From Rhodamnia argentea (taxonomy: Eukaryota; Streptophyta; Magnoliopsida; Myrtales; Myrtaceae), in the NCBI RefSeq assembly GCF_020921035.1, contig NC_063155.1:5441001-5505000 (forward strand): a stretch of 64,000 nt of DNA. The letters run 5' to 3'. The notes under the pieces were generated by a model, which saw only the letters and a program-made list of their open reading frames with translations, did not search any database and was not told where the DNA came from. Shown piece by piece: positions 11,286-37,739 of the stretch (position 1 is its first letter; each line of letters starts with the position of its first letter). The translations under genes were made by a program, and so were the position numbers.

Positions 11286-11287
11286 AA

Positions 11288-13011
11288 AGCTCTCAACAGC
11301 TGCATTCCCGCCAAAGAACCCATGACCTAGAGGGCTATTTGCGACTATCCCAATGCCGAGTTCTCTGAAATTGAAAGACATGTAAAAACTGCCTCATTTC
11401 CTTGAGATATTGAAGGGACAATAATAAACATCATGAGGATAATTGGAGTAGACATGCAAAGTGGAATTACTTCGTCCTCGATTTCGCGAGTCCACGGAGA
11501 ATACTTCATGTGCACAGCTGTGATTAGATGAATAACATGAGCTCTCTTTATCGTATCGATGCTAGCTTCCGACGAACCAATGTACTTTATCTTCCCTTCC
11601 TCCACCAGCTTCTGGAGTTCTCCCATCCATCTTACCAATTGCAATTCATTTAGCTTAAACCAATTTTTCACATTGCAATTCTTGGAGAAAAATGTTCATA
11701 CGCTAGAAAGCAATGAGAAGAAACGCCATGATTTGATAGTGCTTACAGTATCCTCTATCGCCACTGTGGTGTCCACCCCATGCTGATAGTACAAGTCTAT
11801 GTAATCAACCCCGAGTCTCCTAAGATTGCCTTCACAGCATTCTCTTACATAATTAGGAGAACCTCTGATGGCAATTTGGCCCCCCGCCATCCTTTAAATG
11901 CCGAATTTCGTCGCTAACTGAATCTGATCTCACGGAAGCTCCTTCAGAGCCTGAGTGAGTAATCAATTCGGTCTCAGTAACGGGACAACCAGCAAAGAAA
12001 GTAGGCAACAACACACTGTACTAATAAGAGGTATCATCTCAGACTCAAAATGCCCGTTTCTTAACAATGTTCAGAGTCAAACTTATCACAAAGAGGTCAA
12101 GATATTAATGCATTGAAGCTAATTATAACAGGCATCACCTTCCCAATCACGATCTCATTGTCGCAAGGCTGACCATAAACATCCGCCGTATCAAAGAAGG
12201 TGATGCCCTTCTCGAATGCTCTCTTTATGAGTAAACATCCAGCTTCATGGGAAACAGGAGCGTTCAGGACACCAGAAAGCCCTGCGCATCCAAGGCCTAG
12301 TCTAGACACCTGCACAAGAATAGAGGATATCATGGATTTAGTATCCCTCTCTTTGAGTTACTTCAATCTCAAACCTCAAATCTGGTCTAGAAAAATAACA
12401 AAGAGTACCCCGAATTAAGAGCACACCAGAGCCAAGCTACTCTTGAACTGCTACGAGCCTGACTCAAACTCGACTCAATCATTTCAATTTTGAGGCATTC
12501 GAGTACTCAATTTATTTTTCAATTTCGTTACACCTTCAAAGCTCGCTTAGCTCTAAGTTCAAGCTCAGCCTGCGGTCTCATGTAAAATTCTAGCTTTTGG
12601 ACAGTCTGCTTCGAGCTTGAGGTTATTACCGAACACTTCATTGAGTCGAGCTTGAGCTTCAATCAAGCTCGGTCGAGCTTGAGTAGTAAACTGGGATGAC
12701 CCGACTTCGTTTGCACCCTTAATCAAAAACCCAGGTCACACTTATCATCCAATGCAAGGAGCCAAGGACTTTGGGCACTATGGTGCACTCTAAAGTTTCT
12801 AAACAGTCTCTCGGTCAAATGTCACAAAGAACAGGCACAATCTTTAGGGTTTGACACAAAAACTACTAATCTTGAAAACATGAAGACAAGAACTCAGTCA
12901 TCACTTGAACAAAGCCGGCTCACAAAGACCGAAGGAAGCAAAGATCGTTACCTCCAATCCCTGACTGCCCAATTTCACCCTGGGAATCTGAACTCGCTGC
13001 TTCTCCTCGAT
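11288..13011 (-). pseudogene. Aldo-keto reductase copy 1, truncated and mutated
   Basis: Paralogue of the intact AKR at 31.8-35.7 kb. Readable exons: 12952..13011 (exon 1), 12139..12309 (exon 2), 11747..11950 (exon 3), 11454..11626 (exon 4) and about 11288..11364 (part of exon 5). The first four match the intact gene in length exactly. Lesions: the start codon is ATC, exon 3 has TGA after ELP and a TAA further on, the acceptor before exon 4 is GG instead of AG, and the Tyr of the AYSPLG motif is Asn. Exon 5 runs into non-homologous sequence, and exons 6 and 7 are missing. An in-frame ATG upstream at 13161 would give a different N-terminus, but the exon 3 stops still end the frame. The catalytic Asp and Tyr region (FFDTADVYG) in exon 2 is kept. 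Confidence 0.88.
12425..12720. repeat. Dispersed repeat in AKR intron 1, shared by both AKR copies
   Basis: A block rich in gagcttgagctcg-type words with an edge reading aagggtgcaaacgaag (minus sense) lies in intron 1. A second copy lies at about 34985-35395 in the intact gene. Such sequence resembles common non-autonomous hAT-type repeats of plants, but I could not define clean inverted ends or a target duplication. Its presence in both paralogues means it predates the AKR duplication. Confidence 0.4.
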
Positions 13012-13555
13012 TTTCTTTGCTTTGTTTCTGTTTCTCTTCCTCTTAACGAAGATGGGTTGAAGATGAAGAGGTAGGAGGACAGATTTTTGAGCTCTGCCAC
13101 AATAGCTATCGTTGATGGTGACAGTGACATCTTCTTGTTTACTCTTTCTTTGTGGTGACAAGAAATTTCTGATTGGCTTGTACAGGGAACAAGTTGTTTA
13201 ATAGAAGGGTCGTCATCTTGAATCATTTGCCCAAGGATAACGGGCTGCAGATCTAATTGCTTTTTCCATAGTCCTGCTAACAGCCTAGGAATGAAAAACT
13301 GGAGTTGCAGGAGCGCCCCCCGCCCCCCCCCAACCCCCGATTGCAATCGGTATATATTTACCTCGGCTTAAAGTGATTTTCCGTTTGATCTCCCGGTTCA
13401 CCGCATCTACTAGAAGCATGCTCCATACAGTCCGACCCGACTAGACAAGAGTTTGTTAGCGGTGATCGGTAATTTTTCATCTCCTAATTCGAGCAAGAAT
13501 CAAATAATTAACTGCTTAAACATACCACACCTGATTTGCTCAACTATTGACCGTG

Positions 13556-14207
13556 GTGAGAAGTGTCAAAAAAGTTCTAAACCTATTGTATTAGTATCAA
13601 TTCAGTCATAAACTTTTTTTTTGTACCAATTCAGTCCTAAACCTTTTGTATTGATGTTAATTAAATCCTAAACCTTTTATTGGTGCTAATTTAGTCCTAA
13701 ATCTTCTGTATTGTTGCCAATTCAGTCTTAAATCTTTTATATTTATACCAATTGAGTTAATTCGGCCAATTTTGAACGAAAATCGTTGACGTGGACATCA
13801 ATTATCCTACATGGCACGGCTAGCGCTAACTTGGACATTTTTTTAATATTATTTTAATATTTTAAATAATTTTTTTGGTTCTTTTCAAAATTATTTTTTA
13901 AAAATATTTAAAATATTTAAAAAAATATCCACGTTAGCCCCAACTGTGCCACGTAGGATAATTGACGTCCATGCCGGTGATTTCCAATCAACATTGGCCC
14001 AATTGACTCAATTGGTATAAATGCAAAATTTTTAGAACTAAATTGGCACTATTGTAAAAGATTTAGGACTGAATTGGCACTAATTAAAGGTTTAGGACTT
14101 AATTTGCACCAATACAAAAGATTTATGACTAAATTGGCACCAAAAAAGGGTATATGACTGAATTAGCACTAATGCGATAGGTTTATGACTTTTTTGACAC
14201 TTTTTTC
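13556..14207. mobile_element. Mutator-like MITE with long inverted arms
   Basis: A 652-bp fold-back element. Its ends carry the inverted words AAGTGTCAAAAAAGT and ACTTTTTTGACACTT. Each arm is an array of an ~30-bp word related to caattcagtcctaaac and its complement, with an AT-rich centre. It is flanked by a perfect 10-bp repeat, ATTGACCGTG, at 13546-13555 and 14208-14217. The homologous flank of the intact AKR gene (about 37300-37330) has the empty site, attaaccgtt. It has no coding capacity. Long arms plus a 9-11 bp duplication indicate the Mutator superfamily. Confidence 0.8.
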
Positions 14208-14879: not shown

Positions 14880-15487
14880 AAGCCAAACTAAGGACACTGT
14901 CGAACTGAATCGATCAGACTAAATCGAAAGTGCAATGATGATAATCGGTCACTCGTATCCAGTTCAGCCTGGAGAAACGGACACGACCAAGGCTGGCCAT
15001 CAAAATGATCAAGTTGAGTTGTTAGCAAAAGTAATTCAGTGTCCACAGAAAGATCAACTGAGAGTCTCCAAGCAACATTCACCGTGCACCGAATATTATC
15101 CTTCTCTGCAAGATACGCTGTTCGGACCGACAAGTTATGGTCCCTACTGTACCGTAGGTGGACCCCATTGTTGGACAACCGATGAAGTATTAGGTTGGCA
15201 CAAAGCACAGGCAAAGCATCTCCACCTTAAAACAGAACACCTCTGCTTGTTGAATCCCAACATTCAAGCATACATTACAGTTTTTATCACAAGAAGCTTG
15301 AAGAACGGAGGGAAATATTCTCATGATTTTTAAGGCCCCTAGTGATAAGACCGAAATGCGGATATCGACCACCGATCTCACACTTTCCACTGCAATATTC
15401 TCCTCGCAACATGTAGCGGAAATAAGAAAAGGATAAATGCCTCCATCGAGCAAATCCATGGTCAATCTTTTATCCATGCCGCGCGTT
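14880..15487. repeat. Detached copy of an AKR 3' flank
   Basis: From about 14880 to 15487 the sequence matches 31310-31761, the DNA just 3' of the intact AKR gene. Shared landmarks include gcaacattc-ccgtgcaccgaatattatc, aagaccgaaatgcggatatcg and caatcttttatc. The match stops exactly where the AKR stop codon would begin, and the CACTA transposon starts there. The rest of this AKR copy is absent on both sides. Together with the truncated copy at 11.3 kb and the intact copy at 31.8 kb it points to a longer AKR tandem that was later broken up. Between 14218 and 14880 there is only partial similarity to the 5' flank of the intact AKR gene and no gene. Confidence 0.7.
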
Positions 15488-16320
15488 CACTACAAAAAAA
15501 CACCGATTTAGCCACGAAATTTGCGACGTAAATTTTGGAAAAATTCGTCGCTAATCGATTTTGCGACGAAAATTGCGACAGAAAAATATTCGTGGCTAAT
15601 ACGGCGTCGCCAATTTGCGACGATACTTCTGACGAACAAATATCCGTCGCAAATGAGCGACGACATTGTTCGTCGCAAATTACCGACTCACTTTGCGATG
15701 GAGTACGTTTGTGGCAAATTAGCGACGAAAAATATAGTCGTCGCTAATTTAGCAACGAATTTTTTCCGTAACAAATTAGAGACGAACGGTTTAGTGACGA
15801 ACGTTGCGACGGAAAAATTCCATGGCAAATGAACGACGCACAAATGTGTCTGAAGGTGGCAACGAACTTAGCGACGAATTTTTTACCGTAGCAAATAATA
15901 TCTTTGCGACGAATTTTTTACGTAGCAACGTACCGACGAACTTGTTCGTCGCAAAGTTCGGCGACGACGTTGGCGAGGAATTGTTTTCATCGGTAATTAC
16001 GTTTCGCTCCCAATTTCGTCGCTAATGCCACATTACTGTTCAATTATTTAGCGACAAATATTGAAAAATTCGTCGCTATATTGCGACAAAAATTGGTGAC
16101 CGTCGCTATATTCGTGCAACGAACGTTGGGCATTTGCAAGGAAAAGTTGTGTAGGTACAATGATTTGTGACGAAAGTACCAGCGAAGTGGCTGAAATTAG
16201 TGACGACATAATTTTTTTTTTGCGACGAATTTTTGTTTATTCTTTAGAGATGAATTTTGCGACGGAAAAACGGACGACGAATTTAGCAACGACTAGGCAC
16301 GGGACGATTTTATAATTTGT
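15488..16320. repeat. Left subterminal repeat array of the CACTA element
   Basis: About 800 bp dense in gcgacgaa, ttcgtcgc and variants, often as inverted pairs. In En/Spm such subterminal motifs are the binding sites of TnpA. ORFs crossing the array are products of the repeats and not genes. Confidence 0.85.
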
Positions 16321-16643
16321 GATGATCGTATGGTAAAATAATTTTTTCATTCTTCGATTTTAAATGTAACTAAAAGCAAAATTAATTTCTAGAATTTATA
16401 TTTACCATTGAGTGAGCAAGTAATAAGACGTAAATATTCAAGGACAGATGTTATAGTCACCAAAAGAAGAAATTGTAACATCTTAATCCAAATAAATACC
16501 GATACAGTATATCTTTACATCTATATCATCAATAGAACTGGAAAATGATACAGTAATAGATTTTCCTAATAGAAATCCCGAAAAAAAGAACAGAGAGTGG
16601 AGGAAGCATGAAAAAGTGCAATCGATTATCCCTAGAACCTGAC

Positions 16644-17690
16644 CTTACTGAAAAGGATATCCTTATTGTTTATATGCATTATGCCATCCTCAAGTGTGCA
16701 CTTCCACCTGCTCTTCGTCCGTGTCACCTATCCACACAAAAACACAAACTGAAAACATAGTTTCTACCTGAACAAAATATGATAGGTCCAAGGCAGATCA
16801 TCATTGTCATCCTGAAGCAACTGTCATCTTGTCAAATTGAGCTAGAACTAGGTGCTGAGTATTTACCTCCTCTCCCTCATCTACATCATCCTCATCATCA
16901 TCATTTTCATTCAACGGTAGCTCATCTTCATCTTCATCGTCTCCAACATCATTATGAACTCCAATAGCAAGAGTAGGTGCCTGTAAGTCTGAAGAAAAAC
17001 AAGAGGGAGATCTTCTAAGTCTTCTAATACACTAGTGACACCAAAGGACTGGGTCACATGTCATGAACTTGCAAAAGTCGCAAATACCATTTGGAGCTGG
17101 TGTACTAGCAATGTTGTAATCTTCATTCACGACTCCTTGATAATTGTAAATCTGCATTGCGAAGAAAGAAAACACATCAGAAGGGAACCAACCAGTGAGA
17201 TTGCTCCGTATCGCCCTTTTTTCTCGCGAAAGTTGCTCATCTCAAATTGAATCAACCTTAAATGTAGGGCACGGTATGGATAACAACTTTTTTAAGTTGT
17301 TTATTTTTGTTTTTTGGTGGGGGCAGTGGAGAAGGGTGGTTATTTGGAATTTTAGCGCAGATCATGGTATACCCTTGCACCGTCTGAAGACTTCCTAAAA
17401 TGTGCAATTACATGTAGTTTATCAAGATATGTGTTCATCACATGGATCCTGAAGGCAACTACGGAACTTTCTGCCCACAGCATCAAAAAAGGAAACGCAT
17501 GAACAAGCAAAATTCAGAATTATATTATTAGAAAAAGCAGAAGAGAGGATCAAGCATTCAATTCTGTGTTCTAATATCTTAAATGTTACTCACATTGGGA
17601 GTAGAACGCATCTCGTCATAAGGAACAGGAGTTTGCCCATCTGCTTGAGGTATCTTTGACAGTGGCCTTCCCACATGTGCCAGCATTTAC
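16644..17690 (-). pseudogene. Captured 3' exons of the TFIIA large-subunit gene (TOA1/TFIIA-L)
   Basis: Four exons on the minus strand encode the C-terminal third of the TFIIA alpha/beta precursor, a general transcription factor that stabilises TBP on DNA. Exon from about 17690 to 17594: SKIPQADGQTPVPYDEM..STPN. Exon 17088..17151: IYNYQGVVNEDYNIASTPAP. Exon 16828..16988: the acidic run ELPLNENDDDEDDVDEGEE followed by TQHLVLAQFDK. Exon 16644..16727: VTRTKSRWKCTLEDGIMH then INNKDILF. Frames and phases join across the introns, so this is a genomic capture and not a cDNA copy. The donor after QFDK reads AT instead of GT. The final exon (usually ending GEFDF) and all N-terminal exons are missing, so the host protein cannot be made from here. 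It lies inside the CACTA element in the same orientation as its genes. Confidence 0.85.
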
Positions 17691-17699
17691 CTATTTCTG

Positions 17700-19560
17700 G
17701 TGTCTGTAGTGGATAGAATAGTCGTCTTCTCTGTGACCTGCAAGTTTACCGCACCTGAGTTAGCAAATATACAACTAAGCAAATTACAAAAGTTCGGAAA
17801 GAGATGCTGAAACTAAATCCACCAGGAAAAGGATCAAATATCCTGCAGCTGGTGCACAGTACATACGTTTGCCCAGGATAAAAAACTGAGCTTCAACACT
17901 TGAACTAGAAAACAATAACCAAACTTTAAACACCAGATGTACAAGTTTATACTCCCAAAACTCCCCCTGGTTCAAAATCATCTACCTCATTCGGTTATAA
18001 AAAGCATTCATAGAGACTATGAAGTATCAAGGCCTGAGAAAATGGCATTATAGCAACATAAAAGACCACATAAAATGTGTGCATGTCGCGCTAGCGTTAG
18101 TGATTCTCTGAGCCGGTCTAGATTTCCAATGCCTTGGGAAACTGAGCACACGTCAATAGTCACTTTCGTTGCTCAACATCTATATAGTGCAGCTTTGTTT
18201 TTTGCTAGAGCTTTAAACCACTAAAACAAAGAAACTACTTACAACAGCAACCAGCTAACTGATTCCATCAATTGCACATACAAAATCTGCTTTACTGAGA
18301 AGATCGTCTTATCTCTGTCTCAATCGACCGAGAGAATAAAGAAAGTGGAATAAGCAATTGGCCATATTCAGCAAAATAGAGCCGAAAATATCAGCCAAAC
18401 GAAATAACAATAAGTACACATACGTATTTTGAAAAGAATTAAAGATCACATACTAATAGAAATCCTAATAGAAATGATACAGTATTAGATTTTCCTAATA
18501 GAAATCCTGAAAGTAATGGAGAAAACACTCTCATCATTGCACATGACGAAATTAATTGAAGCATACCAAAGAACTCATAACATTTTAACCCAAAGCAAAT
18601 GCAACTGATACAATATATCTTGACATTACCCTTTGGTTACTCCATGTTAACTTGGTATTTATAACCCCACAGCCAATCTTCAAGAGATATCCGCAGCAGC
18701 TACTTTCTATAGAAGTCTTTCAACTCCATCCTCTGGAAAAAGGAAACAGAGAAGGTAAAGAAAAAGAAGATGCCGGTTAACGTTGTCTCCAGCATAATGG
18801 AAAGGGATACACCATAAGTAAATGGCTTATACAGCTCGATTAAATGTTTCATTAGCCATCACTAAATGGAAATGTAAAAATCAATGTAGGTTTTAGTAAA
18901 GATTTTTAACTAGCAGAATGGACTGACGAAAATAGCCGTACATACTAATAGAGACAACTACAACATCATTTAGCAAATCAATGAAGATAAGAAAAATTTT
19001 AAAAAATGAAACAGGCTAAAACATTCTTACCTTGTCAACTCCAGTTCCTCTTATGCTAGAAATCTGCACAGATGATGAGATATCTCAGGAAAAAAAAGCT
19101 AACAAAACTACATATTTACCATGTCATTGGCATTTGGCAAAATAGAGGTGTGAACCCTGACCAATGATCACTCAATTTAGAGAAAGCAAGTCATTGGATC
19201 TGTCTATGAATGGAAAAGGGATGCTTCGGATTGGGACAGCGAACATAATACCTCCAAATTCTACACTAACAGATTGTTGTGCATTGCTTGAGAGAGCAGT
19301 GAGTAAGTTGGATCAGTAGCCTCTGCATCTGCATCAAGAGCATATAACATGAGCAGTTGCATCCTTTAGCAAGCACAAAATTAAGCGAGCATAGTCTCTC
19401 CGACAATGCATATCTAAGCTAATCTGCGATTCAATGCATGCAACCAAATAAGTAGCTGTGCACATTACTAATAAAAATCAATAAAGCTATAGACAGCTGC
19501 AAAAACTGTTCTAACCTGACTGCCAAACAAAAAAGAAGCCATGATGTCGGCAAACATGTT
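17700..19560. other. CACTA interior between captured TFIIA exons and the second transposase gene
   Basis: No gene I can name. A block near 18460-18620 repeats words from 16470-16600 (gatacagta-tagattttcctaatagaaatcc), so part of this region was duplicated. A minus-strand stretch around 19260-19370 reads as a short open peptide (LDADAEATDPTYSLLSQA) that could be a further captured exon; I do not recognise it. Confidence 0.35.
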
Positions 19561-19562
19561 GT

Positions 19563-21234
19563 TTATGGAATTAACTCACGGAGAAGATCCTCAGCATCAA
19601 TGTCATCATCATTGCGCCGCTCCTCGTCGTGCCGATGACCTATTTCATTACCTGGAGGTGCAGGAGGAACCTCAGCCGGATTTATGTTGAGGGTTTGCAA
19701 GACCATTGCCATTTGAGCCTGCAGAGATCTGATTTGGTCATCCTTCTGTGACAATCGTTCTTCTTGCCGTTTCATTTGTTCGTCTTTCTCTGCAAGCAAA
19801 AGTGTCGGTCGGCTCACTTGTTGTGCCGTTGCCTCATCCAGTCGTCTCCTCCTTGAAGCAGCCGCATTGGAGGATGAACTTCCACCATCCTTTCCAACCA
19901 ATTCCCTTGACAAGTTCCCCCACCCATATATTTTTCCTCGCTTGACCCCACCCGACGCCTCCAACCATATTGTCGTATTGTCGGCTGCCACCTCGGACGC
20001 AGCCCCACCATCACCGCCACCACCCGCACTCATTAAAAGCTCATCATATTTTTCCTATATCAACAAAAATATTGCAAGCATTCATGGTTTTGATTGTACT
20101 TTCCATAAAGTGAAAAGTATAACCTCACATACCTTAACAGATTTCGCTCGGTCGCCAACCCATGTCTTATCTTTCTTTTGGAAAACACGTTCGAATGTGG
20201 CTGTATACGTCGGTTCAGTCCCCAAATCATGTGCCTACAAAATTGAAACATAAATGAGTAATTGAATTAAATTAACTTACAACATGTTTAAAAAACTTAC
20301 CAATCTTTTTCTATGCTCCCCAATGTTGATAGAACCTCCAGCATATGTTGCAGATGCAGAAGACCCTTCACTCGAACTGGAAGCTCGATTCTTGGCATTT
20401 TGTGCACTCCTTTGCTTCATTTTTTCACCTTCCCAAGTTCTATTCATTTCAGTCCAATCTTCACCGGTAATAAAGTGTGGCTTCACCTTTTTTGTCTTTG
20501 CTTTATTCATCACATTGCGGATGTGATCACCGGCTTTTTTCTTAAATATTCTTCTAATTTCATGCTCTTGCAATTCATCCCAGCTGAATTTCCTCTGTAA
20601 TCAAGAGCAAAACAACTTGCTTTATTTACGCCCAACTTAGTTTTTCAGAAAATTCAAACAAACTTACCTTGAACTCACTCCACCACAACTCTTTCACTTC
20701 TTCTGGCGCGCTACCGTAACTAATCCACGGGCCTCTCCAATAGTTATTCACTATTTTATTAAGTTCCCGCACGACCTCCGTAGCATCTTCAAATCTTTAA
20801 ACAAGGACAATTCAGTTAAATCCATATCTAACACCCAAACGATTCCCTAAATATTACATTTACTTAAAATATTGAAGTACTTACGAGTCTCCCTGCGGGC
20901 ATATGACACGCCGGCTATCTTGTGTAGCTAAGCTCTCCCGATCATTCGATTGTTCCACAGGAGAAGGTGGAACTGAGGCAGATGGAGGAGTCGCATGTAG
21001 AGATAGAGGGCGAGATGAAAGGGAAGGGGAAGATTGCTGGGATGGGGACGGGGACGAGGACGAACAAGGGGAAGACGAATGGGAAGGGGCTCCTCGGCTT
21101 CCTTGTGAAAATGCACCACGCATGTCACCTCCACGTCTATAATACTGACAAATAGAAATGTTAGAGAAATATCAGAAAAAATACACAACAGTTTATTCGG
21201 GACACATAATGACGTACATCACGAAGCTTACCAT
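19563..21234 (-). CDS. CACTA second gene: plant transposase Ptta/En/Spm (Transposase_24) family
   Basis: Predicted 425-aa protein from six exons: 21232..21234 (start codon only), 20885..21144, 20668..20794, 20301..20594, 20133..20234 and 19563..20054. All joins are GT-AG and in phase. Order of parts: a YYRRGGDM start, a Ser/Pro-rich segment (about 15-85), a conserved core with NNYWRGPWISYGSAPE, ELWWSEFK, the basic RRIFKKKAGDHIRNV and GEDWTEM, then YTAVFERVF and DKTWVGDRAKSV, and a C-terminal coiled coil with repeated KDEQ/KDDQ words. This is the usual partner gene of Tnp2 in plant CACTA elements. By analogy with TnpA it may bind the subterminal motif; that role is inferred. The ATG falls exactly at an exon end; an alternative start is Met at 21123. 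No break seen. Confidence 0.8.
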
Positions 21235-22092
21235 TTTGGTTCGGAGAGCACGCGAGAAACTTGAGAAATCGAAAGAATCAATGGTTGTATCTGATAAGGA
21301 AATGAATAGTTAGTTAATCGTAATGTTCCTTTGCATATGTGGAGCTTTCGCTGCACATAACTATCGACATTACTCCTCCAACATCAACACTCCTTTAACA
21401 CACACAAGCACCAACTACCAAGCTATACCAACATGGTCTTAATCTGAGTTAGTAGAAGCAACACAAAAGAAATGCATAGACCGAAACCCCGATGGTCTTA
21501 ATCTGAGTTACCATAAGCAATGCAAAAGAAAGTGGCATACTGTCCTCATCCAACTCAAGCAGAGACGCAAGCGGAGGAGGGTAATACCTTGAGGCGACGA
21601 GCAAAGGCGAGAGCGGGGTTTGGAGAATAAACAAAATGGCCAATTTGATCCTGAAAGAGGAAAATTAATGGTATGAACAGACGTTGTGCTAGCTATTTGA
21701 CGAGCAAACAATTAGTGAAATAGTAATGATTCCTTTGAAGACTCAATTTTCACAAGATGGAGTAGTGTGGATAGGAAAAAAGATGAGGTCGGTTTAATGT
21801 GACGAGTGCATATACCATGGACAGAGCTGCCGTACATCAGAATTCACAGCACAAGCTTCATCATCATACCACAACCCGCGAGTTAAGGAAAAGTATTTGC
21901 CGTTTAGATATCCCACCCAGAAAGTTCATGCCAAAATGCAATCCCGACCATAGACAACCTATTCGGGAGAAACATATTACCTCAGCCTACATGCCCTCTT
22001 TGCAATCAAGATGCGGGAACAACTCGTTCTTGCTTTGTCCTTGGTCAGATTCGGTCCGGGACTAAACCTTCGCTACAAATCAAAATTTCAAG

Positions 22093-22560
22093 TCAATGGG
22101 GAGCAAGGATTTGGCCTTTTGGCTGCAATCTTACAGTACCCACTCGACAAACCCACCTTCCCTTGACAATGTGGCTTGCGTTCGTTTGACACCAACTCCC
22201 AAATCCCGCTACCCTAGTGCAATCGGAACACATACTCAGAAATTTTGCAAGATGGAATGCCAAAAAAGGGTGACACCCACTCGGAGATCGGAGACTCACC
22301 TCAACGCTGGACTCCACCGAAAGACAGAAACTTTTTGACGGAGCGAGCACCGGAGCTATAGCCAAATTAGCGGGTGACTCGACGTGAACGCCCGTCGATG
22401 GTTTGGCCAGATCGGTTCCAGCGGCTCCTGCTCTCGAAGTCCAAGCTCTAACACTTGTTGAAGTACACTCTCTCCACACGGCCAAACCGGAGCGGGAGAG
22501 GGACGCTACACCCCACACTCAGGCTAAGACCGCGAGCGGGAGGCGTCGAGCGAGAAGGAT
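22093..22560 (-). promoter_or_regulatory. GC-rich leader upstream of the second CACTA gene
   Basis: About 450 bp clearly richer in G+C and CpG than its surroundings, between the internal motif array and the second transposase gene. A possible donor (GAGGTGAGTC) lies near 22300. En/Spm elements have a GC-rich first-exon control region near the promoter, and this could be the equivalent. A 141-codon ORF through it has no recognisable domain. Confidence 0.35.
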
Positions 22561-22648
22561 GTAAGTGGACGCATTGGGGCGATTAGGGTTCTTCTCCACA
22601 CGGCAAAACAAGAAGAGGCATTTCGGTGATGAAGTTATTAGTATTTGT

Positions 22649-23670
22649 TTAGCGACGGACTCATCTGTTCGTCGCTAATTGGCACCGTACATTAGCGACG
22701 AAAAAAAATATTCGTCGCTAATTAGCTACCCAAAAAAATATCCATCGCTAATTAGCCACGAAAAAAAATGCCCATCCCTAATTAGCCACGAAAAAACGTT
22801 TCGTCGCCAATATAGAAGTAATTAGCGACGAAGATAGTTTTCGTCGCTAAATTCACTCAAGTAAAGTAGCGACAAATAGGCATGTCGTCGCGAATATAAA
22901 AGTGGACGTTTAGCGATGACATAACATTTTCGTCGCTAATTAGTGACAATCAAAATTGTCGTCGCAGAAAACATACAAATAAAATAGCGACGAACAACAT
23001 TGTCGTCGCTAATTTACGTGTATGTGGTTCGCGACGAATTAGAATATGCGTCGCTAATTATCGACAAACACAATAGTTCGTCACTATTTTTAGTCTTTAG
23101 CGACGAACATATGTTTCGTCGGTAATTACTGTGAAGCAAATTACCGATGAAAATATTGTTCGTCGTAAATTAGCGACGAATTACGTGTTTGTCGCTAAAT
23201 AAAATGGTGATTTAGCGACGACAATGCTTTTCGTCACTAACTTGTATTGAGACGAATTACAACATGTGTCGCTAATTATCGACGAACATATTTTTCGTCG
23301 CTATTTAATGTGATGCAAATTACCGACGAAAATATTGTCCGTCGTAAATTAGCGACGAATTTGGATTTCCGTGGCTAATTAGTGACGAATTACGTATTCG
23401 TCGCTAAATAATATTGTGATTTAGCGACGAGCATGCTTTTCGTCACTAACTTTTATTCAAACAATTTGTAGCGACGAACAAGGTTTTCGTCGCCAATTTA
23501 CTTGTCAAATTAGCGACGAAAATATTATTCATCGCTAATTTGGCGACGCGCACCTACTTTTCGTTGCTATTGCTTCAACGAATTCCTTTTTGTATAAATT
23601 TTGCGCGAAATTGGTTTTGCTTGCAAAATTGGCCATGAAATATATATTCGTCGCTAACTTTGGCGACACG
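22649..23670. repeat. Internal array of the CACTA subterminal motif
   Basis: About 1 kb packed with ttagcgacgaa and ttcgtcgctaa, mostly as facing pairs separated by 4-10 bases, so many units are imperfect palindromes. It lies between the stop of the Tnp2 gene and the leader of the second gene, about 7 kb from either terminus. No CACTA-type end flanks it. It may mark an old nested element or a motif array acting on the second gene's promoter. Confidence 0.8.
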
Positions 23671-23811
23671 TAACAATTGTCTTCCACATCAAAACAATAA
23701 AAATATATAATACTATTCACAAAAAATTGTAATAATAAAATAAAATTTAAAGTAAGAAACGTCATACTAATAATAATAAGTATACATAATTAGTTAAAAT
23801 TGGCAAAATGT

Positions 23812-26800
23812 CTAATCTTCGTCTTCATCATCATCTTCATCTTGACTTTGGTCTTCGTTTTGATCTTCTTCTTCATCTTCATCTTCATCTTCATCTTCAT
23901 CTTCATCATGAGTATCATCTTCATCCTCTGTCCCAAAATCAGATTCTTCATCACCATCTACATTTGATTCGCGAATTTCAGTTTCATCCACATCTATGAC
24001 TGCTCCACATGGATCTCGTAAAGTCAGAATGTTATATTCCTCAACTTCAACCGTGTTACAAACTTCCTCTTGTTGATACGCTGTATCCTTCCGGTGTGCC
24101 TCAATTTTCGTTCGTGCTTTGGTTTTACATACAGCCCACCAATCGCCTTTGTCGCGTTTTAAACTAGGATATGATGCATAATATACTTGAATTGCTTGTT
24201 GTGCTAAGACAAATGGTTCATATTTCATAAACCTTTTCTTGTGATTTACTTCAACCATATTGAACTTCCTATGCACTTTCATTCCTCTGACGGGGTCGAA
24301 CCACATGCACTTAAATAATATAACCCGCATTAATGGTCCAGGGTACTCTATCTCTATGATTTCATCCAACAAGCCATAAAAATCATCTTTCGCACTACTA
24401 CCATTGGATGACCGAACACACACACCACTATTCATTGTGGCTTTTCCCGTTCCGTACTCTCGAGTATGAAAATTGTACCCGTTTATGAAATATGCTGGCC
24501 AAGTTCGTACCCTTGTTTGTGGACCCCATGACAGATGATATAGCAATCCTTGCTCCTCGACTTGATCATGATTGCTGTGAATCTGAAGTCACACATGCAA
24601 AGTTAACACAATATTTTTTAACTAATGATTTCTAGAACATTAATAACTTACATAAGTCCATAACCAACTTACATATATTTTGAACCATGTCGCAAATTGT
24701 TCATCGCACAAACGGTCAAACTTATTTGGTGGTAGTCCATACATTGAAGTTTGAAAAATCCTATTAACAAATACCATTTAAATATTAGCAAATGTTTGAA
24801 ACACAATAAATATATTTGTAGAAGTACACTTACTTGAAGTATGGCCCCACTTTCGGACAATTCAGCAAAATATATGTATGAGTTGCTCGCCATTCTTGGT
24901 CCGTTAAATAACGACACTTACATGCGCCACTTGGTCGACCAAGATAATTAAAAATAGAGAATGGTTTGCAATTGGGATCAATGGGCCCCTCATCATTTCT
25001 TCCTGCTCTCTGCCTCTTGCAATGCACGTGCGGCTCAAAATAGTATGATGCAAATGTTGTCACTTCTTCCACAACATATGCATTACAAATTGAAGCTTCA
25101 ACACATGCCTTGTTATTTGCTTTTCTCTTCAAATGATATAAGAACCTACTTGCAATATGAAAAAGTTAATAAGAATATAATAAGTGATAAAGTAATTTCA
25201 AATTTATTAAAGAAATATTTTACCTTTCAAATGGATACATCCAGCGAAATTGGACGGGACCCGCAACTTTGGCCTCATAAGGCAAGTGAACTAATAAATG
25301 TTCCATTGAATCAAAAAACGATGGAGGGAATATCCTTTCTAAGTTGCAAAGAATGATTGAAATATCTCTCTCCAGCTTCTCCATGTGTGATGCTTTTAAC
25401 ACAGTTGAGCAAATATCATGAAAAAAATTACTTAACTCTGTGATAGCGCCCCATACAAAGTTCGGTAGAAGTTCTTTGAAAGCTATTGGAATTAGTTTTT
25501 CCATAAATATGTGGCAATCATGGCTCTTCATACTAGTCAACTTGCATTCATTCAAATCAACACATCTCCCGAGGTTCGAAGCGTATCCATCAGGAAATTG
25601 CACAAATTTCAACCATTGGCGGACAACCCGTCTCTGCTCCCTATTCAAAGTGTAAACCGCTTTTGGTTTTGGTCCCCTACTGCTTGCATCCACATCTAAT
25701 GCTGGTCGATCACAAATAACTCTCATATCTTTTCTCGGATTCAAGTTGTCTTTCGTTTTTCCAGTAACATCCATCACAGTATTGATGACATTATCAAAAA
25801 CATTCTTTTCCACGTGCATGACGTCAAGATTATGACAAATAAGATGGGTCTTCCAATATGGTAGATCCCAAAATATACTGCGCTTAGTCCACTTATGTGT
25901 GCTACCGTACGCAAAAGTCGTGCCATGGGGGTTTTCAACAACAGTCGGGAAGTCATGCACTCGCTCCCAAATTTGATCACCAATCAACCTCAATGGTGGG
26001 AGTGTTCTTTCAATCCTATTTTTGATGAACTCTTTTTTATTCATTCGAAATGTATGATTTCTCGGCAAAAATTGTCTGTGACAGTCAAAATAGGTGGCCT
26101 TCTTACCGTGTTTTAATCGGAAGGACTTTGATCTCTCCATACAAATCGGACATCCTAACATCCCAGTTGTACTCCATCCAGATAACATCCCATAAGCTGG
26201 AAAGTCATTTATCGTCCAAAGAAGTGCAGCATTCATTACAAATGTTTGATTAGTAGAAACATCATATGTAAGAACACCTTCATCCCATAGCTGCCATAAC
26301 TCCGTAATCAATGGTTGCATATAAACATCTATCAATTTTTTCGGATTTTGCGGGCCGGGCATGATCAATGTCAAAAACATATAAGGTGTCTTCATGCACA
26401 TACCAGGTGGCAGATTATACGGAGTTAAGATAACTGGCCAACATGAATAGTTTTTTCCCGATTTCCCAAATGGGGCAAATCCATCAGCACAGAGACTTAA
26501 CCTAATGTTTCGAGGCTCCATCGCAAACTCGGGGTATGTTCTATCAAAACATTTCCATGCCTCTGCATCCGAAGGATGACACATCAAACCCTCCTCGGTT
26601 TCATGATTTGCATGCCAAGTCATGTGTTCAGTGATGGCTTGAGACGCATAAAGCCTTTGCAATCCGGGGATTAAAGGCAGATAAAACATTTGCTTGCATG
26701 GTCTACGCTTCTGATTACGATCTTGCCTCCCGCTAATCTTGTACCTCGGTTGGTTATAGAATTTGCAAGATTCGTCATTTTCATCATTCCCCCAATATAA

Positions 26801-27583
26801 CATACAACCCCCACTACATACATCAATCCTTACAACTGGAAGACCTAAGTCATCAACTAGCTTCTTCATGTCATAAAAATCATTTGGCATAATATTATCG
26901 TGAGGCATTGCTTCTCACACTACGTCAACAAAAGAGTTGAAGCAATTCTCGGACACATTATGCTCTGCCTTGATGTTTAACGGTCTCGCGGTCACCGATA
27001 ACTTAGTATGGTTGTCACAACCTGCCCATAAAGGTTCATCTGCTGCTTTCAATACTTCCCGGAACTGATTAGATGTAAAAGCTTCATTCTGCACATTCTC
27101 ATCGGAACCCGTTACTCCCGCCTCTTGAAATTGCGATGCATAGCTAGTGCCCACTTGTTCAAATGTAGGAGCAAAACTAGTACTCGCATGGTTCGTTTCT
27201 GAAACGAAGTTTTGACCAGCTGCATCAATCACCATCCGCTGGTATGGGTTCAATTGGTTATAATAGCTACATTCTTCCCTAACTGAAAATTGATCACTTC
27301 TTCGATATTCTTCATCGGATATAAATTGTTCACCATGGCAAGTCCAATTATAATAATTCGGAGTGAACCCAAATCTACAAAGATGTTCTCTAACTTGATC
27401 ACACTCATAAAATTTATTATTACTACACCTTTTACATGGACACCTTAACTTACTTCCATCCATAAACTCAAATTCACTACTAGCAAAGTCCAAAAACTGT
27501 TCCAACCCAGTCTGAAACTCATCGGTCAATCCTCGTCGTCCGGATAAGTTCTTATTATACATCCAAGCTCTCTGACTTTGCAT
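23812..27583 (-). CDS. CACTA transposase, Tnp2 family (TnpD-like), one in-frame TGA
   Basis: Catalytic transposase of a CACTA element. Exons 25224..27583, 24834..25145, 24673..24760 and 23812..24582 join in phase at GT-AG sites, about 1176 codons. Domains in order: an N-terminal transposase-associated domain starting WMYNKNLSGRRGLTDEF with Cys-rich RCPCKRC; the Tnp2 core from KLVDDLGLPV through VCSGGCMLYW, LSLCADGFAPFG and LICHNLDVMHVEKNVFDNV; DUF4218 around VHLPYEAKVAGPVQFRWMYP; DUF4216 around REYGTGKATMNSGV and IEYPGPLMRVILFKC; and an acidic Asp/Glu tail. The start is the Met of MQSQRAWMY, as is usual for the family; an upstream Met at 27613 is in frame. One codon, number 223 (26917..26915), is TGA where the family normally has Arg. 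No other break seen, so this copy is probably not autonomous unless the stop is read through or spliced out. Confidence 0.9.
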
Positions 27584-28420
27584 TGTATACGTGTAAATAT
27601 TAAAAATTTTCATAAAATATGAAAAATACCATCTCCACTATTTATTAAATTTCTATTTGTGACGAAACAATTACTTTCAAATTGAAAAAGATACCATGTC
27701 AAGAAGACTTACCCAAATATTTGATTGAAATCTTTATAGTAACAAGCGCTCGGTTTGATGAGAAGTGCACGGTTTTCTTGTATCGCGAGCCTTCAAATGG
27801 ACACGTACCCAAAAAAAAAAATTACTTGACATTCATGAAGCTTATGCCAATTCACAGAAGAAAATGGTGAAATATATAATAGTTTATTCTAGGAATAGCA
27901 TAACACACGAATTTAGGAACGAAAAAAAATTTCGTCGCTAATTAGCCACGGACAACTTTGTTCGTCTCTAATTTCCGACGGAAGAGCACGTCCGTCGCAA
28001 ATTAGCGACGAATTAAATTTTCCGTCGCAAATTAGCGACGGCCACGCTCTTCCGTCGCTAATTACGTTACGAACATTAAAAAAAAAATGTCGCAAATATT
28101 ATCATTAATTTCGCATTACTACATATTTTACAGAGATACCTTAACTTATTTCAATCCATGAGCTCAACTTTACTTTGAAATAACAAAAAGTTACAATGTC
28201 GACAACACTTACCGAAGTATCCGATTGAATTTTTTTGTAGGAGAAAGTGGTCAATGATGAAAATTCCAATGTTCGCTTGGATTGTGAGTCTTTCAAATGA
28301 ACACGTACCTAAAAAAAAAATTATTTAGCATTCATGAAATTCATGGTAATTAATAGAAGAAAAAAGTGAAATAAACAACAAGTTACTCTATCATTACCAT
28401 AAGACACAAATAGGAATAGA
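27430..28420. repeat. Partial tandem duplication at the 5' end of the Tnp2 gene
   Basis: Sequence at 27690-27900, upstream of the transposase start, recurs at about 28190-28410 (shared words: tcaaatg-acacgtacc, gacattcatgaa-style blocks, and a poly-A tract). A piece of the first coding exon near 27430-27480 recurs at about 28125-28180. A short subterminal-motif array (about 27910-28090) sits between the copies. The second copy has no long ORF, so it looks like a duplicated promoter/leader. Confidence 0.6.
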
Positions 28421-28641
28421 GAAGACAGGAGGCAAACAAGAAGCGAGCAAAGAGTGGACGACGAAAGACTCTTCTGTGGATAGAGAGAAGGTAAAGGGGT
28501 TTTAAAGAGAGAAGATAAAGCGGTCTAAGTCCTCCTCCTCCACAGCTGATGTATTGCCAATTGCTGCGCCTGCAGCTATGATGGCTCTTGATGACGTGCT
28601 GTCTTTTCCGTGACCAGAGACTTCTTCTGACATCTATGAAG

Positions 28642-29999
28642 CACTACTATTTAGCGACGAATATCATAATGTCGTCGCTAATTAGCGACGAAAAAACTTT
28701 TCGTCGCTACATTTAACGTAACCCATTTGCGACGGAAGCATAAGTTCGTCACTAATTTGCGACGAACGTATATTTCGTCGCTAAATCTATCTAGCCAATT
28801 TACGACGAACAACTGTATTTGTCGCCAAATTCAAAGAAAACACTGGCGACGAAAATCATATTTCGTCGCTGAATAGCGACGAAAGTCATTTTCGTCGCTA
28901 GAGTCAGCTAACATTGTGCGACGAAAAATATTCATTAGTATGGTCGGTGAACTCGGTTTTACATCAAGTTTTTCAATCTGCTTTAACCGACATTATGTCG
29001 GTGGCCGGAGGGAGTGACATCATGTCGGTGGCCCGTTAGTGATAACTTTGCGGAAATGAACGGTTGAGAAGTTTTACATTTGCGACGGAAATAGAACGTC
29101 CTCACTAATTACCGACGAAATATATTTCGTCGCTAATCATAATACACAATTGGCGACGAAGGGACACGTTCGTCACCAATTAGCAACGATGTTCTGATAT
29201 TTCGTCGCTAAATTCCCACTATTCTCTGTTTTTTCCTTACGGTTTCTGCAGCCTTTCTTTACTTTCGAAAGGAGACCCACACTTTTTTCTCAAAAGGAGA
29301 GTCGCCCTTTTTTCTTTTCAACGTTGAAGAGCCAGAAAGCATTTGCCTGCAGAAGAAAGCGTGTGGCCGTACCAATTTTGAGTTACTAAAGCGAGAGAAT
29401 TAGTAACGAATGTTTAGCATTTCATCGCTAATTCTCGACAATAAGTTCAAAATCGTCGCCAACTGTTGATGGTCTCTCATTAGCGATGAAACACATTATT
29501 TACGACTATTATGTTCGTCGCCAAATTGTAATTTACCAATAAACCAATATATTACTGTCGTCGCTAAATGTTAGGTCTCGCTCAGTAGCGACGAACACTT
29601 TATTCGTCGCTAATTTACTCAACAAGCAATCAAATATGAAGGGTCTGCATTAAACATTAGCGACGGAATAATTTTTCATGGATATTTTCGTCGCAAATGT
29701 GTCACATAGATATTTCATCGCCAATTTCGTCGCCACTTAGCGGCGGAACTTTTTTCATGGCTATTTTCGTCATAAATGAGCTACAAATATTTTATTCGTC
29801 GTTAGGGTCGTCGCAAATTGGCGACGACTTATTTTCCGTCGCTTAGTTCGTCGCACATTGGCGACAAATAATATATTCGTAGCTAATTATGTCGCTAATT
29901 AGAGACGAAGTAATTCGTCGTTAAATCCGTCACAAAAAATATGATTCGTCGCTATTATCGTCGCTAATTGTTCGTGGCTAAATAGGTGTTTTTCTAGTG
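28642..29999. mobile_element. Probable nested non-autonomous CACTA-like element
   Basis: The right end reads, in reverse complement, CACTAGAAAAACACCTATTT followed by AGCCACG, a second CACTA-type terminus 494 bp inside the outer end. A matching left candidate, CACTACTATTTAGCGACG, lies at 28642. Flanking triplets are aag and aat, so only two of three bases agree. The 1.36-kb interior is mostly subterminal-type motif with a unique core around 28930-29080 and no transposase. Its right terminus is clearer than its left. Confidence 0.5.
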
Positions 30000-30493
30000 A
30001 ATTTGCGACGAAAAAAGGTGGTCGTTGCTAATTAGCGACGAAATGTGAATTTTCGTCGCTAATTGGCGACTAATCATATTTTTGTCGCAAAGGATATAGC
30101 GACGAACAATATTTTCATGGCCGTTTTCGTCGCTAATGTTCGACGAAATTTTTTTGTCGCTATTTTCGTCGCAACGAAATATTGTTCGTGGCTATTGTCG
30201 TTGCAAATTAGCGACGAAAACTATTTCGTGGTCATTTTCGTCGGAAATTAGTGACGAAAAATATTTCGTGGCTATTTTCGTCGCAAATTAGTAACGAAAT
30301 TTGTTTCCGTCGCTATATTCGTCACTAATTAGCGACGAATTTATTCGTCACTAATTAGCGACGAATTTATTCGTCGCTAATTTCGTCGCAAATAGCGACG
30401 AATATTATTTTTGTCGCTATTTTCGTCGGAAATTAGCAACGAATGTTTTTCGTCGCAAATTTTTCGTGGCTAAATCCGTGTTTTTTTGTAGTG
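30000..30493. repeat. Right subterminal repeat array of the CACTA element
   Basis: Dense gcgacgaa / ttcgtcgc motifs, including several exact palindromic units such as attagcgacgaatttattcg, up to the terminal GTAGTG. This is the counterpart of the array at 15488-16320. Confidence 0.85.
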
Positions 30494-31309
30494 TGGGATT
30501 GTTTGACGGTTCATGAGCATCAACTTAAGACAGCTTAAGGAATATCGCGCCTCCCAATGAAAATTGAAGTCTATGGAACGCCTAAGTCTCACTTATCAAC
30601 GATGTTATCTCGTTGCAAGTTAAGACAAGTGCCACATATATATAGCATTTTATCTCACCACACCCAGGCGAAGTGGGATTTCATTCATTCCTACCCTATC
30701 ACCATATTAAAAGCCTGCTAGGAGCCGCTCCTTATCTAGACCCTCTAGTTCATGCGAACACTTCATGCCCTCATTGGACCGGGTCGTTACATGCACATCA
30801 TCACAAATATGCTGTGAAGCACCTTTAGTTTCTGCTAGGTCCCTTTAGATTTGTAATGAGTTTAACTATATATTTGATCTCTCTTTTTACGACGCAGGTA
30901 TTGTGCTTCTATTGCTTACGCCTGTCCTCGTCGGGAGGTATACGGATTCCGATTTTGAAAAGCATTAACTCCTAGTATCAAAACCAATTATCAATCTCAG
31001 ACCCTACAATTCACATTGTGGGGACAATTTTTTATTTTGACTATACTTCATTGTAGAATTTGGTACAAAGTATCTTGATAAGCAATGGCAGAAGCATGCT
31101 ATAGCAAAGAACTTGCCAACAAACTTGGGGAAAGTAATCCAAAAATTGATAACATATCAGGTGTTTTTCCTGAACCGCTCATTTGGCATCAAACATGCTT
31201 GTCATTGGAAGGATCAAGTAGACATGTTCGAGTTCGGGACAATTCGCCAAAGCACTTCAAGTAACATTTTCAGCTAAAGGAACATTTTTCTTGGTCTTTA
31301 TCTGAAGCA
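30494..31309. other. Unassigned sequence between the CACTA end and the AKR 3' flank
   Basis: Not homologous to the AKR exon that should stand here if the CACTA insertion were simple. The first 300 bp ends at gggtcgttaca near 30793, which looks like the end of an LTR-type repeat, but I cannot define a start or a target duplication. A 59-codon ORF at 31085..31264 (MAEACYSKELANKLGES...) has no recognised family. Confidence 0.3.
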
Positions 31310-31761
31310 GACATCAATCAATGTCCACAGAAAGATTAACGGGCGCTCTAAGCAACATTCTCCGTGCACCGAATATTATCTATCTATCTATCTATCAGTG
31401 AGAAGCTAACCGTGTCGTGCTCCATTAGCCGAACCTCGCTGTTGCACAACTGATGAAACATTAGTCAGAATAAAGCACAGGCAACGCATCTCCACCTTAA
31501 GACAGGACACCTCTGCTTGTTCAATCCCAACATTCACACACACACACACACTACAGTGTCTACCACAAGAAGCTCAAACAACAGAGCAACATACAATGTC
31601 TGCCACATCACTTATTCTCATGATTTATTTAGGCTCCCCATGTTAAGACCGAAATGCGGATATCGCAACCACCGATCTGGCGATTTCACTACAATATTCT
31701 CCTCGCGACAAAGTAACTCCATCGAGCAAATGCATGGCCAATCTTTTATCTACAGCACGCC

Positions 31762-34700
31762 TTATCTTGCTGGGGTATTTGCATGTCTCCATGAATGCTT
31801 GGCTAATAATTCCACCTCTCTTTCACCACTTACTTCATTCATGGCCATGACATCGCAAATTTCTCTCATCTCGTCTTGGCTAAGCTTAATTCCCACTGAT
31901 CCAATATTGTCTTCAAGGTTCTCGGCTTTTCTGGTCCCTATATATCGTGGCAACTGAAAGTTAAAACGTTTGTGATAAATATGGGAAAACCAACAATTGC
32001 CTGATTTGACAGACCTCCTAACTTTGCAAAATTCAACGGCTATCAGCATAGTAACACTAAATATATTACAATGTGACGCACTGTTTGCTCAAAATAGTTA
32101 CCTGGTATTGGGATAATGTCAATCCCTTGATGAAGAAGCCACGCTAGGGCCAGTTGAGGAGTGGTGCAGCCATGCTTTGCAGCGAGGTCGACAACTTTTT
32201 GATATATAACTTTGTTCTTCTCTAAGTTCTCCCCGGTGAATCTTGGATGCATAGCCTATCATATAACCATAGACATCAGCATAGAAGCACAAACTACAAC
32301 TGATACATAACCAAGAAATCCAAAAAAAAAAAGTTCCAAGGCAGCAAAAGGTCTTCTGCATAATCCCACTCTCTCTGCAAGCTCTAATTCAATCCTCTTG
32401 GGAATGAAGAGGTTGATTATAGAAAGGCTTAGTGGTTCTTTGAATGTGAAGAGAAAAGTATGCTTAGATAGGCAAAAGATGGGGACTTCTCGTTTGGTTT
32501 TCTTAGGCTGCGCATAGTAACCATTCTGTTCCTTAAAACTGATTCTGATTAAAATGACTTTTTCTGATTACGTTTCTGGATGAGTTTTAGAGAATCAGAA
32601 CGCATTTGGTAACTGCCCAAAATTTCTGTTCCTGGAATAGAAACGCATTTGATAACTGCACAAAATTTCTGTTTCAAAAAATTGTTTCTCTTCCTAATTT
32701 TTCTCATTTAAGTTAAATAACTATGTAGTTAATTTGTAAAAATTTCATTCTAAATTGAAGATTAATTTTCAATGCATACTAAAATAATTTAAAATACATT
32801 TTTTTTTTAGCATGTCATAAATGAAATACAAATTTTAATACATTACGTTTGAAGTTCGTTTAAAGCATGAGAAAGTCCCCATATTAAGAACTCATTTTTT
32901 TTTCTTTAAATGTTGCATTATCCAAAATACATACAAACATAGAAGCCAAATAATCAAATTATCCACTAACAAAAAAAAAAAACAAATTATCTTCCTTGAT
33001 ACGAAGTACAAGTTCTTCACTATTATTTTGCAACTTTTGTCCTAAATCCAAGTGGGTGTTTAGATTCAACTCTACGTGCAAATGTTTACATTTTGTGACT
33101 CACTACTACGAGTATATATGTTATCATCCACATGTTGGATGCCATCATCTTCGTGACATTTTTTACGGTAAGAGTGAAATCTATGAAATTTAGGCTCAAA
33201 TTTATGAAAATGAGTCAAACTAGTCTAATATAAGATTATTCTATTTTTAGGGATTTTCTAAATTTTTGGTGATTTTTAAAAAAAAAATCCAATTTTTTTT
33301 AAAATTTTAAATTTTAAATTTTATTTTTATTAGGTTGAGGGAAAAGTGATGAGAGAACTAAAAGGGAAAAGTGAGAGATGTGAGAATTCATTTTGTTTTG
33401 TGATTCTCAAAAGTGATTCTTTTTCCGGAATCAACTTTTTTTTTGTTCTGGATTTTACTTTAAAACCGATTTCGATTTTCTAAAACCGATTCTGAGAACA
33501 GAATCATAATCAAATTTATTTGCGTTACCAAACGCGATTCTCATCCTTTCTTATTTCCAGAATCGGAATCGGAGAATGAGAATGGTTACTATGCAGGCCA
33601 TTAGTTGCTGTATATTGAGCTTGTAGCAGGATTGCTCACCCGCTTGCTGCTGTTGATGCTAATATAAAATTAAGCTTGAAGGTAACATAATTCAGATTCT
33701 CTTGCCAATAGACTAATGATCGATATCACCAAAGTAAATTGCGAAAAAACATACCAACACGCTCTCCGCGGGCAAGCTCTCAACAACCGCCTTCCCGCCA
33801 AAGAAACCATGACCTAGAGGGCTATATGCGACTATCCCAATGCCAAGTTCTCTGAAATTGAAAGACACGTAAAAACTGCCTCACTTCCTTGACATATTGA
33901 AGGGACAAATAACAAGCATCTTGAGGATAATTGGAGAAGACCTGCAAAGTGGAATTAATTCGTCCTCGATTTCCCGAGTCCACAGAGAATACTCCATTTG
34001 CACAGCTGTGATTGGATGAATGGCATGAGCTCTCTTTATTGTATTGATGCTAGCTTCTGACAGACCAATGTACTTTATCTTCCCTTCCTCCACCAGCTTC
34101 TTGAGTTCTCCCATCTATCTTACAAATTGCAATTGATTTAGCTTAAACCGATTTTGCAAATTGCAATTGGGTTGGAGAAAAATGATCATATGCTAGAAAA
34201 CAATGTGAAGAAACACCATGATTCGACAGTGCTTACAGTATCCTCTATCGCTACTGTGGTGTCCACCCTGTGCTGATAGTACAAGTCTATGTAATCAACA
34301 CCAAGTCTCTTAAGACTACCTTCGCAGCATTCTCTTACGTACTCAGGAGTACCTCTGATGGCAACTTGACCCCCCTCCATCAGTGCAATGCCGAATTTGG
34401 TCGCTAACTGAATTTTCTCTCGCGGAAGCTCCTTCAGAGCCTGAGCAAGTAATCAGTTAGGACAACCAGCAAAAAAAAAAAAAAGACTAGGAGGCAACAT
34501 AACACACTAATAAGAGGTATCATCTGAGTCTCAAAATGTCTGTCTCATAACAATGTTCAGGGTTAAAAATTATCACAGAGAGATTAAAATCTTGATGCAT
34601 TGAAGCTAATTAAAACTGGCATCACCTTTCCAATCATGATCTCATTGTCATGATCATGACCATAGACATCTGCTGTATCAAAGAAGGTGATGCCCTTCTC

Positions 34701-35688: not shown

Positions 35689-35969
35689 TTTCTCCTCTTC
35701 ACTTTTTGCTTCTACCCCTTCTCCAAGGGAAGATGGATTGAATATGAAGAGGTAAAGGAGATAGATGGTGACAGTGTCATCTTTTTTGTTTTTCTTCTTT
35801 TGGTGATAAGAAGATTATGATGGACTTGTAGAAAGGTGGTCCAGGACTTGAGTTGGCATCTTGAACTTATACCTGACGATAATGGAGTGCAAACCCATTT
35901 GCTTTTTTTGTACAGTCACGCTAATTGCTTAGAAATGAAAAATCGGAGTTGTAAGGTCCCTGTCGATGC

Positions 35970-37088: not shown

Positions 37089-37739
37089 GTGTGAATTCCA
37101 TTTTTTATCTCTACATAAAGTGATTTTCTGTGTTTCAAAGAGTGGAGCTCCCGGCTAGAAACATGTACTGTACCTGCTGGAAAGGCACTTCCGACAATCC
37201 GACACGACAAGAGTTTGATAGTGGCGGTCAGTGATTTTTCGTCATTTGACTCGAGCGAGAACCAAATAATTGACTACTTGAATAGATAACGCCCCTCATT
37301 CACGTTTATTAACCGTTACACACTGAAACTACTAGTCTGGACCCGAATCTATTGGACCGAATTTATCACAACCCTCAATTTTGTGAATCTTGTCTGTGTT
37401 CCAACCCAATCTCCAAGTTCGTTGCGGATGAGCAACACAAAGGATGACGGATTAGCGACTGCTAGCACTAATATGGCGAGCTCCCAACTTTATCGCCTAA
37501 TCACAAACTAAAAGAACTCAAAGAAATGGAAAATAAACACAATCAGAGTGAAGCATGTAGTCGCTATCATAAAGGCATTATCAATGTTGATTTCTCCATC
37601 TTCTGTACAGAAGAACTCCAAAAAATAGTCAGGGAAACCTCAAAATGCTAACAAATTAACACAATCCAACATTTGAAGGCACGTCTCTCAAAGAATCAAC
37701 TCTCCAATGAATCAACATCAATTGCAGTTTCGAGAACTT

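Follow-up and report, generated by a model that had tools for sequence, protein, structure and literature searches.

A probably defective CACTA element of Rhodamnia argentea that carries exons of the TFIIA large-subunit gene

The stretch of Rhodamnia argentea DNA analysed here (the window, 64 kb) holds four exons resembling part of the gene for the large subunit of the general transcription factor TFIIA (TFIIA-L), and these exons lie between the ends of a transposon. The locus raises the question of whether they are cargo that the transposon acquired elsewhere or the host gene itself, broken in place by insertion, and whether their presence in the element has any consequence for the host. By its content, the window looks like plant nuclear DNA, and four of the eight flanking reading frames compared with Pfam were matched (chlorophyll a/b-binding, PF00504; aldo/keto reductase, PF00248; DUF3700, aluminium-induced; and PORR). 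The parts of the transposon are as follows, with positions numbered along the window.

15488..30493, transposase genes on the minus strand: CACTA (En/Spm) element, 15,006 bp
15488..16340, unstranded: terminal inverted repeat and array of subterminal repeats on the left side, with a boundary near 16340 drawn by eye from the sequence
16341..19562, minus strand: motif-free region that separates the left array from the TNPA-like gene and contains the TFIIA cargo (from the motif profile)
19563..22518, minus strand: TNPA/TNP1-like second gene, 22518 being the upper end of the open frame and not a mapped gene start
22650..23700, unstranded: internal block of subterminal-type repeats, about 1 kb, separating the TNPA-like gene from tnp2 and lying away from both element ends
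23812..27637, minus strand: tnp2 transposase gene with Transpos_assoc, Transposase_21, DUF4218 and DUF4216 (Pfam)
29580..30493, unstranded: right end, with its subterminal repeats and terminal inverted repeat

The element has the terminal inverted repeats starting with CACTA, the tnp2 transposase and the subterminal repeat arrays by which the CACTA superfamily is recognized. Its inverted ends, CACTACAAAAAAACAC(C/G)GATTTAGCCACGAA, are 31 bp long with one mismatch and lie at 15488 and 30493. The 13-bp CACTACAAAAAAA has 13 matches if up to two mismatches are allowed, the two exact ones being those at 15488 (plus strand) and 30493 (minus strand), and the left end (15488-15731) could be aligned in inverted orientation with the right end (30493-30275) at 69% identity. 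Subterminal-type 7-mers are nearly confined to the element, which holds 158 of the 164 matches in the window; the left array accounts for 26, in the two bins covering 15501-16500, and the bins from 16501 to 21500 hold none. The right end is the 5′ side of the element, as judged from the direction of the genes. For tnp2, Pfam gave matches to Transpos_assoc (7.3e-21), Transposase_21 (PF02992, 2.4e-81) and DUF4216 (7.1e-22), with the DUF4218 match split over two exons (1.4e-25 and 9.3e-10), and the second gene matched Transposase_24 at 20283-20600 and 19566-20054, weakly and under the Pfam cut-off (E-values of 0.0019 and 0.0089). The tnp2 frame is interrupted by an in-frame TGA at 26917-26915, which probably makes this copy non-autonomous unless the TGA is spliced out. 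To judge from its sequence, the element is full-length, yet now probably defective.

The borders of the element are less regular. Lengths of 2-10 bp were compared around 15488/30493 for a target-site duplication and none was equal (at 3 bp, GTT versus TGG); the CACTA duplications given in the literature are 3 bp (PMC8978399, PMC2613891) or, in rice and maize, 5 nt (PMC8903248). A single clean insertion is therefore less well supported, and the identification as CACTA is unaffected. The left flank (15036-15474) has a paralogue of 70% identity at 31318-31750, which continues without a transposon; the similarity stops 13 bp ahead of the element, and those 13 bp match the paralogue at 7 of 13 positions. 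We considered this paralogue as an empty site and rejected it, because the right flank (30494-31318) gave no match with the paralogue's continuation (score of 20, shuffled sequences reaching 27), so that support extends, at best, to the left junction. Taken together with the lack of a target-site duplication, this means that the right border has been rearranged, that the two ends come from different insertions, or that the paralogy just stops. The flanks have other duplicated sequence: two diverged aldo/keto-reductase regions lie either side of the element (11287-13307 and 33774-35951, 86% over 1.1 kb), the family match in Pfam being obtained for the left copy, and a 317-bp inverted repeat at 13561-14202 (79%, 8-bp spacer), which looks like a foldback element, interrupts sequence similar to 37190-37476.

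The TFIIA-L exons lie in the motif-free region at the left of the element.

17690..17594, minus strand: exon A, readable from 17686 as MLAHVGRPLSKIPQADGQTPVPYDEMRSTPN
17151..17088, minus strand: exon B, IYNYQGVVNEDYNIASTPAPN and the first base of the next codon, with AG acceptor and GT donor
16988..16828, minus strand: exon C, an acidic stretch and NTQHLVLAQFDK, with AT and no GT at the donor
16727..16644, minus strand: exon D, VTRTKSRWKCTLEDGIMHINNKDILFSK, then GTCAGG

A first, sequence-only reading of this DNA had described four in-phase exons of TFIIA-L inside the transposon ends, oriented like the transposase genes, and in this it was right: the exon phases are compatible (0 for A/B, 1 for B/C and 0 for C/D), the exons lie between the ends at 15488 and 30493, and exons and transposase genes are all on the minus strand. 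When joined, the four exons encode 134 aa, of which residues 11-134 matched the Pfam TFIIA family (PF03153) with an E-value of 2.5e-25 over profile positions 321-408 of 415; three other families gave weak matches under the cut-off (0.026-0.88). With the acidic stretch in exon C, this also agrees with the proposal that the fragment covers the acidic linker and the conserved beta region. A search of the PDB with the joined exons (E-values up to 10) gave 13 distinct sequences, 10 of them TFIIA chains, including the best match, human TFIIA beta (1nvp_C, 1.9e-13), and yeast TOA1 (1nh2_C, 4.3e-13). The others were two of tubulin chaperone D (E-value of 1) and a protein deposited as PWWP domain-containing (9hd7_P, 1.2e-8), residues 844-905 of which align with the query's TFIIA beta region.

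The 64-kb window was searched by tblastn with a presumed Arabidopsis TFIIA-L protein as query. Exon D was found at 86% over 28 aa, exon A at 74% over 23 aa, and exons B and C as one gapped alignment running across the introns, at 35% over 156 columns. These exons account for three of the 40 matches listed; the other 37 had E-values of 0.091-22, led by a match in a low-complexity, acidic part of tnp2. Alignment to TFIIA-L, without which the identification would have failed, was thus obtained with Pfam, with TFIIA chains in the PDB and with the Arabidopsis query, and the agreement of the joined exons with TFIIA is far beyond chance. No further TFIIA-L exon was recognized in the window among the matches listed for the Arabidopsis query; in particular, for an N-terminal exon or alpha domain, up to 46 kb upstream, the listed matches to the first 75 query residues had E-values of 7.3 or worse. 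The final codons of TFIIA-L, too few for a reliable search, were not recognized. With no credible match for the N-terminal alpha domain among those listed for the whole window, the cargo is a fragment and not a complete gene.

The exons are not intact, and here the sequence-only reading needs amendment, since it overlooked several signs of decay: the AT donor, a TAA, the TGA of tnp2, an out-of-frame fusion between the TNPA-like gene and exon A, and the lack of a target-site duplication. The splice acceptors are AG at all four exons and the donors of A, B and D are GT, whereas exon C has AT in this position (GACAAG followed by ATGACA). Past exon C the frame reads FDK, then six codons, MTVASG, and a stop, ending ahead of the RTKSRWKC part. 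Exon A becomes readable directly after an in-frame TAA (17689-17687), 17690 being the start as drawn here, from which that of the parent may differ. Exon D ends in FSK and is followed by GTCAGG, which is probably the parental donor, and its continued frame reads VRF and a stop. The four exons are therefore present as described, with the qualification that exon C lacks a GT donor and exon A can be read only from 17686. Across the joined exons A-D the frame has stayed open, so the decay is limited.

We also studied the sequence around the exons. A comparison of all six frames of 17691-19562 with Pfam, in which stops were treated as residues, revealed no additional captured gene, giving four weak matches in three of the six frames, all under the cut-off (E-values of 0.04-0.13). 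The exons are flanked by a 41-bp direct repeat (95%) at 16543-16583 and 18472-18512, and a second, weaker pair (58 bp, 78%) lies in swapped order at 16467-16520 and 18569-18626. These swapped repeats could be the scar of a capture by repair synthesis.

The introns retained between the exons point to genomic DNA, not a processed transcript, as the most likely source. With exons and introns together within matched inverted ends and no other TFIIA-L exon among the matches listed for the 64 kb, there is good support for the capture of genomic TFIIA-L by a CACTA element. This is in keeping with the earlier suggestion of genomic transduplication, which presupposes that the genome holds an intact parent gene as well. 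We consider it very probable that this full-length, probably defective element carries a transduplicated genomic fragment of TFIIA-L as a passive, decaying passenger. The fragment would cover the exons from the one containing SKIPQ to the one that ends in FSK, placed between the TNPA-like gene and the 3′ subterminal repeats, and would have been captured elsewhere, from the intact TFIIA-L gene of the host. Aberrant excision, or repair, at CACTA copies lying close together may have been the route, which has been proposed for Pack-CACTA elements; in a review, capture is ascribed to neighbouring insertions with complementary end deletions (PMC13317346). At most, the fragment might now give rise to small RNAs or be transcribed as an untranslated tail behind TNPA.

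The same review also gives a tandem-array hybrid model for Pack-CACTA (PMC13317346), and a variant of capture along these lines would make the present element a composite, with one CACTA element contributing the TFIIA cargo and the left end, fused to another contributing tnp2 and the right end. The internal subterminal-type block at 22.6-23.7 kb is in keeping with such a fusion, as are a degenerate second CACTA-like end (29999-29977, about 0.5 kb inside the right end and in matching orientation), the absence of a target-site duplication and the failure of the right flank to resume the paralogue of the left flank. However, the outer ends are almost identical (one mismatch in 31) and the subterminal motifs are common to the whole element, both as expected of one element, and the TNPA-like gene could have its promoter in the internal repeats that lie upstream of it. 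We regard a composite origin as rather unlikely, while giving it some weight.

Read-through from the transposase genes into the TFIIA exons had been suggested, which their shared orientation would allow. The last TNPA frame ends in ELIP and a stop, with a possible donor (CTCC followed by GTGAGT) after 19580, in phase 1. Splicing from this donor to exon A at 17690, as proposed, shifts the frame and runs into a stop, and junctions to exons B and D are also out of frame; what survives of the suggestion is that exon C can be joined in frame, although the reading then ends in FDKMTVASG and a stop if the C/D intron is retained. A second GT, after 19818 and in phase 0, is in frame with exon B or D. 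If joined to exon B, with the C/D intron again retained, it gives a reading that ends in MTVASG and a stop, and if joined directly to exon D it keeps just 28 residues of the domain. Since the reading through exon C ends in this way, a product with the complete TFIIA beta domain is unlikely, and the region from TNPA to TFIIA could possibly give truncated acidic peptides or untranslated transcripts.

That chimeric TNPA-TFIIA transcripts or small RNAs alter host TFIIA is very improbable. The common orientation and the in-frame junctions from 19580 and 19818 would permit it, and there is a precedent in soybean, where fragments in Tgm-Express1 are spliced into chimeric transcripts (PMC1947982); against it, the exon A junction first proposed fails to keep the frame, the reading after exon C stops ahead of the RTKSRWKC strand, and tnp2 is interrupted. 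Likewise very improbable is the specific case in which host TFIIA-L would be dampened by small RNAs or by transcripts spliced in frame from TNPA to exon C, so that the transposon could act on the general transcription machinery or shelter from silencing behind an essential host gene. Small RNAs from the fragment, if made, would link the silencing of transposons to an essential gene, but this is hypothetical and has no support here; functional consequences of the cargo are not supported. That the exons are the host TFIIA-L gene in place, broken by at least one CACTA insertion, is very unlikely: the kept introns, most of the splice sites and the unmatched target sites, which could follow two separate insertions, would suit it, but there is the AT donor of exon C, the in-frame TAA ahead of the readable part of exon A, and the tblastn matches listed include neither an N-terminal exon as far as 46 kb upstream nor any other TFIIA-L exon of the 64 kb.

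With capture as the preferred reading, the element can be compared with others. CACTA elements with captured fragments of host genes have been described in grapevine (PMC2528002), Chenopodium (PMC8978399), soybean (PMC1947982) and Arabidopsis (PMC8903248). Captured fragments are mostly non-functional, yet numerous ones are expressed with signs of selection, as stated in the review (PMC13317346). Among the papers listed in the literature searched, of which coverage was partial, no report of TFIIA as CACTA cargo was found by title or abstract start, and, by title, literature joining CACTA, TFIIA and transposon concerned only bacterial blight resistance in rice. Collections of viral and prokaryotic contigs gave no TFIIA relatives, nor the viral one any tnp2, results of little weight given the makeup of these collections. 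Fragment capture by CACTA elements is therefore already known, whereas TFIIA as the cargo may be new.

In two Cactavine-5 copies of grapevine, a fragment of a PPR gene lies downstream of the transposase ORF (PMC2528002), and the Rhodamnia element is similarly a CACTA element with a transposase ORF and a piece of host coding sequence downstream of it. However, Cactavine-5 has as its cargo a portion of a PPR gene together with the 3′ UTR, in opposite orientation, whereas that in Rhodamnia is from TFIIA-L, in sense orientation and with three introns kept. The CACTA-like elements of Chenopodium, with captured Neprosin and AP2 fragments (PMC8978399), share the tnp2-type coding domains and the position of the host fragments outside the coding sequence, but their fragments are short (80 bp for AP2) and lie in the 5′ region, compared with about 1 kb on the 3′ side here. 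Tgm-Express1 of soybean (PMC1947982) is alike in that CACTA ends enclose host gene fragments with exons and introns. It differs in being a 5.7-kb element inside F3H, with five fragments and demonstrated chimeric transcripts, whereas the Rhodamnia element has one recognized fragment, retains transposase genes and is known from DNA alone. The Pack-CACTA elements of Arabidopsis (PMC8903248) also have captured coding DNA within CACTA ends, but they are by definition non-autonomous and carry it without a transposase gene; the Rhodamnia element has the tnp2 domains and keeps both tnp2, in interrupted form, and the TNPA-like gene, and is thus not of this type. A subunit of a general transcription factor therefore joins the list of host fragments in CACTA elements, in an element where the transposase genes are still present and the introns of the fragment have been kept.
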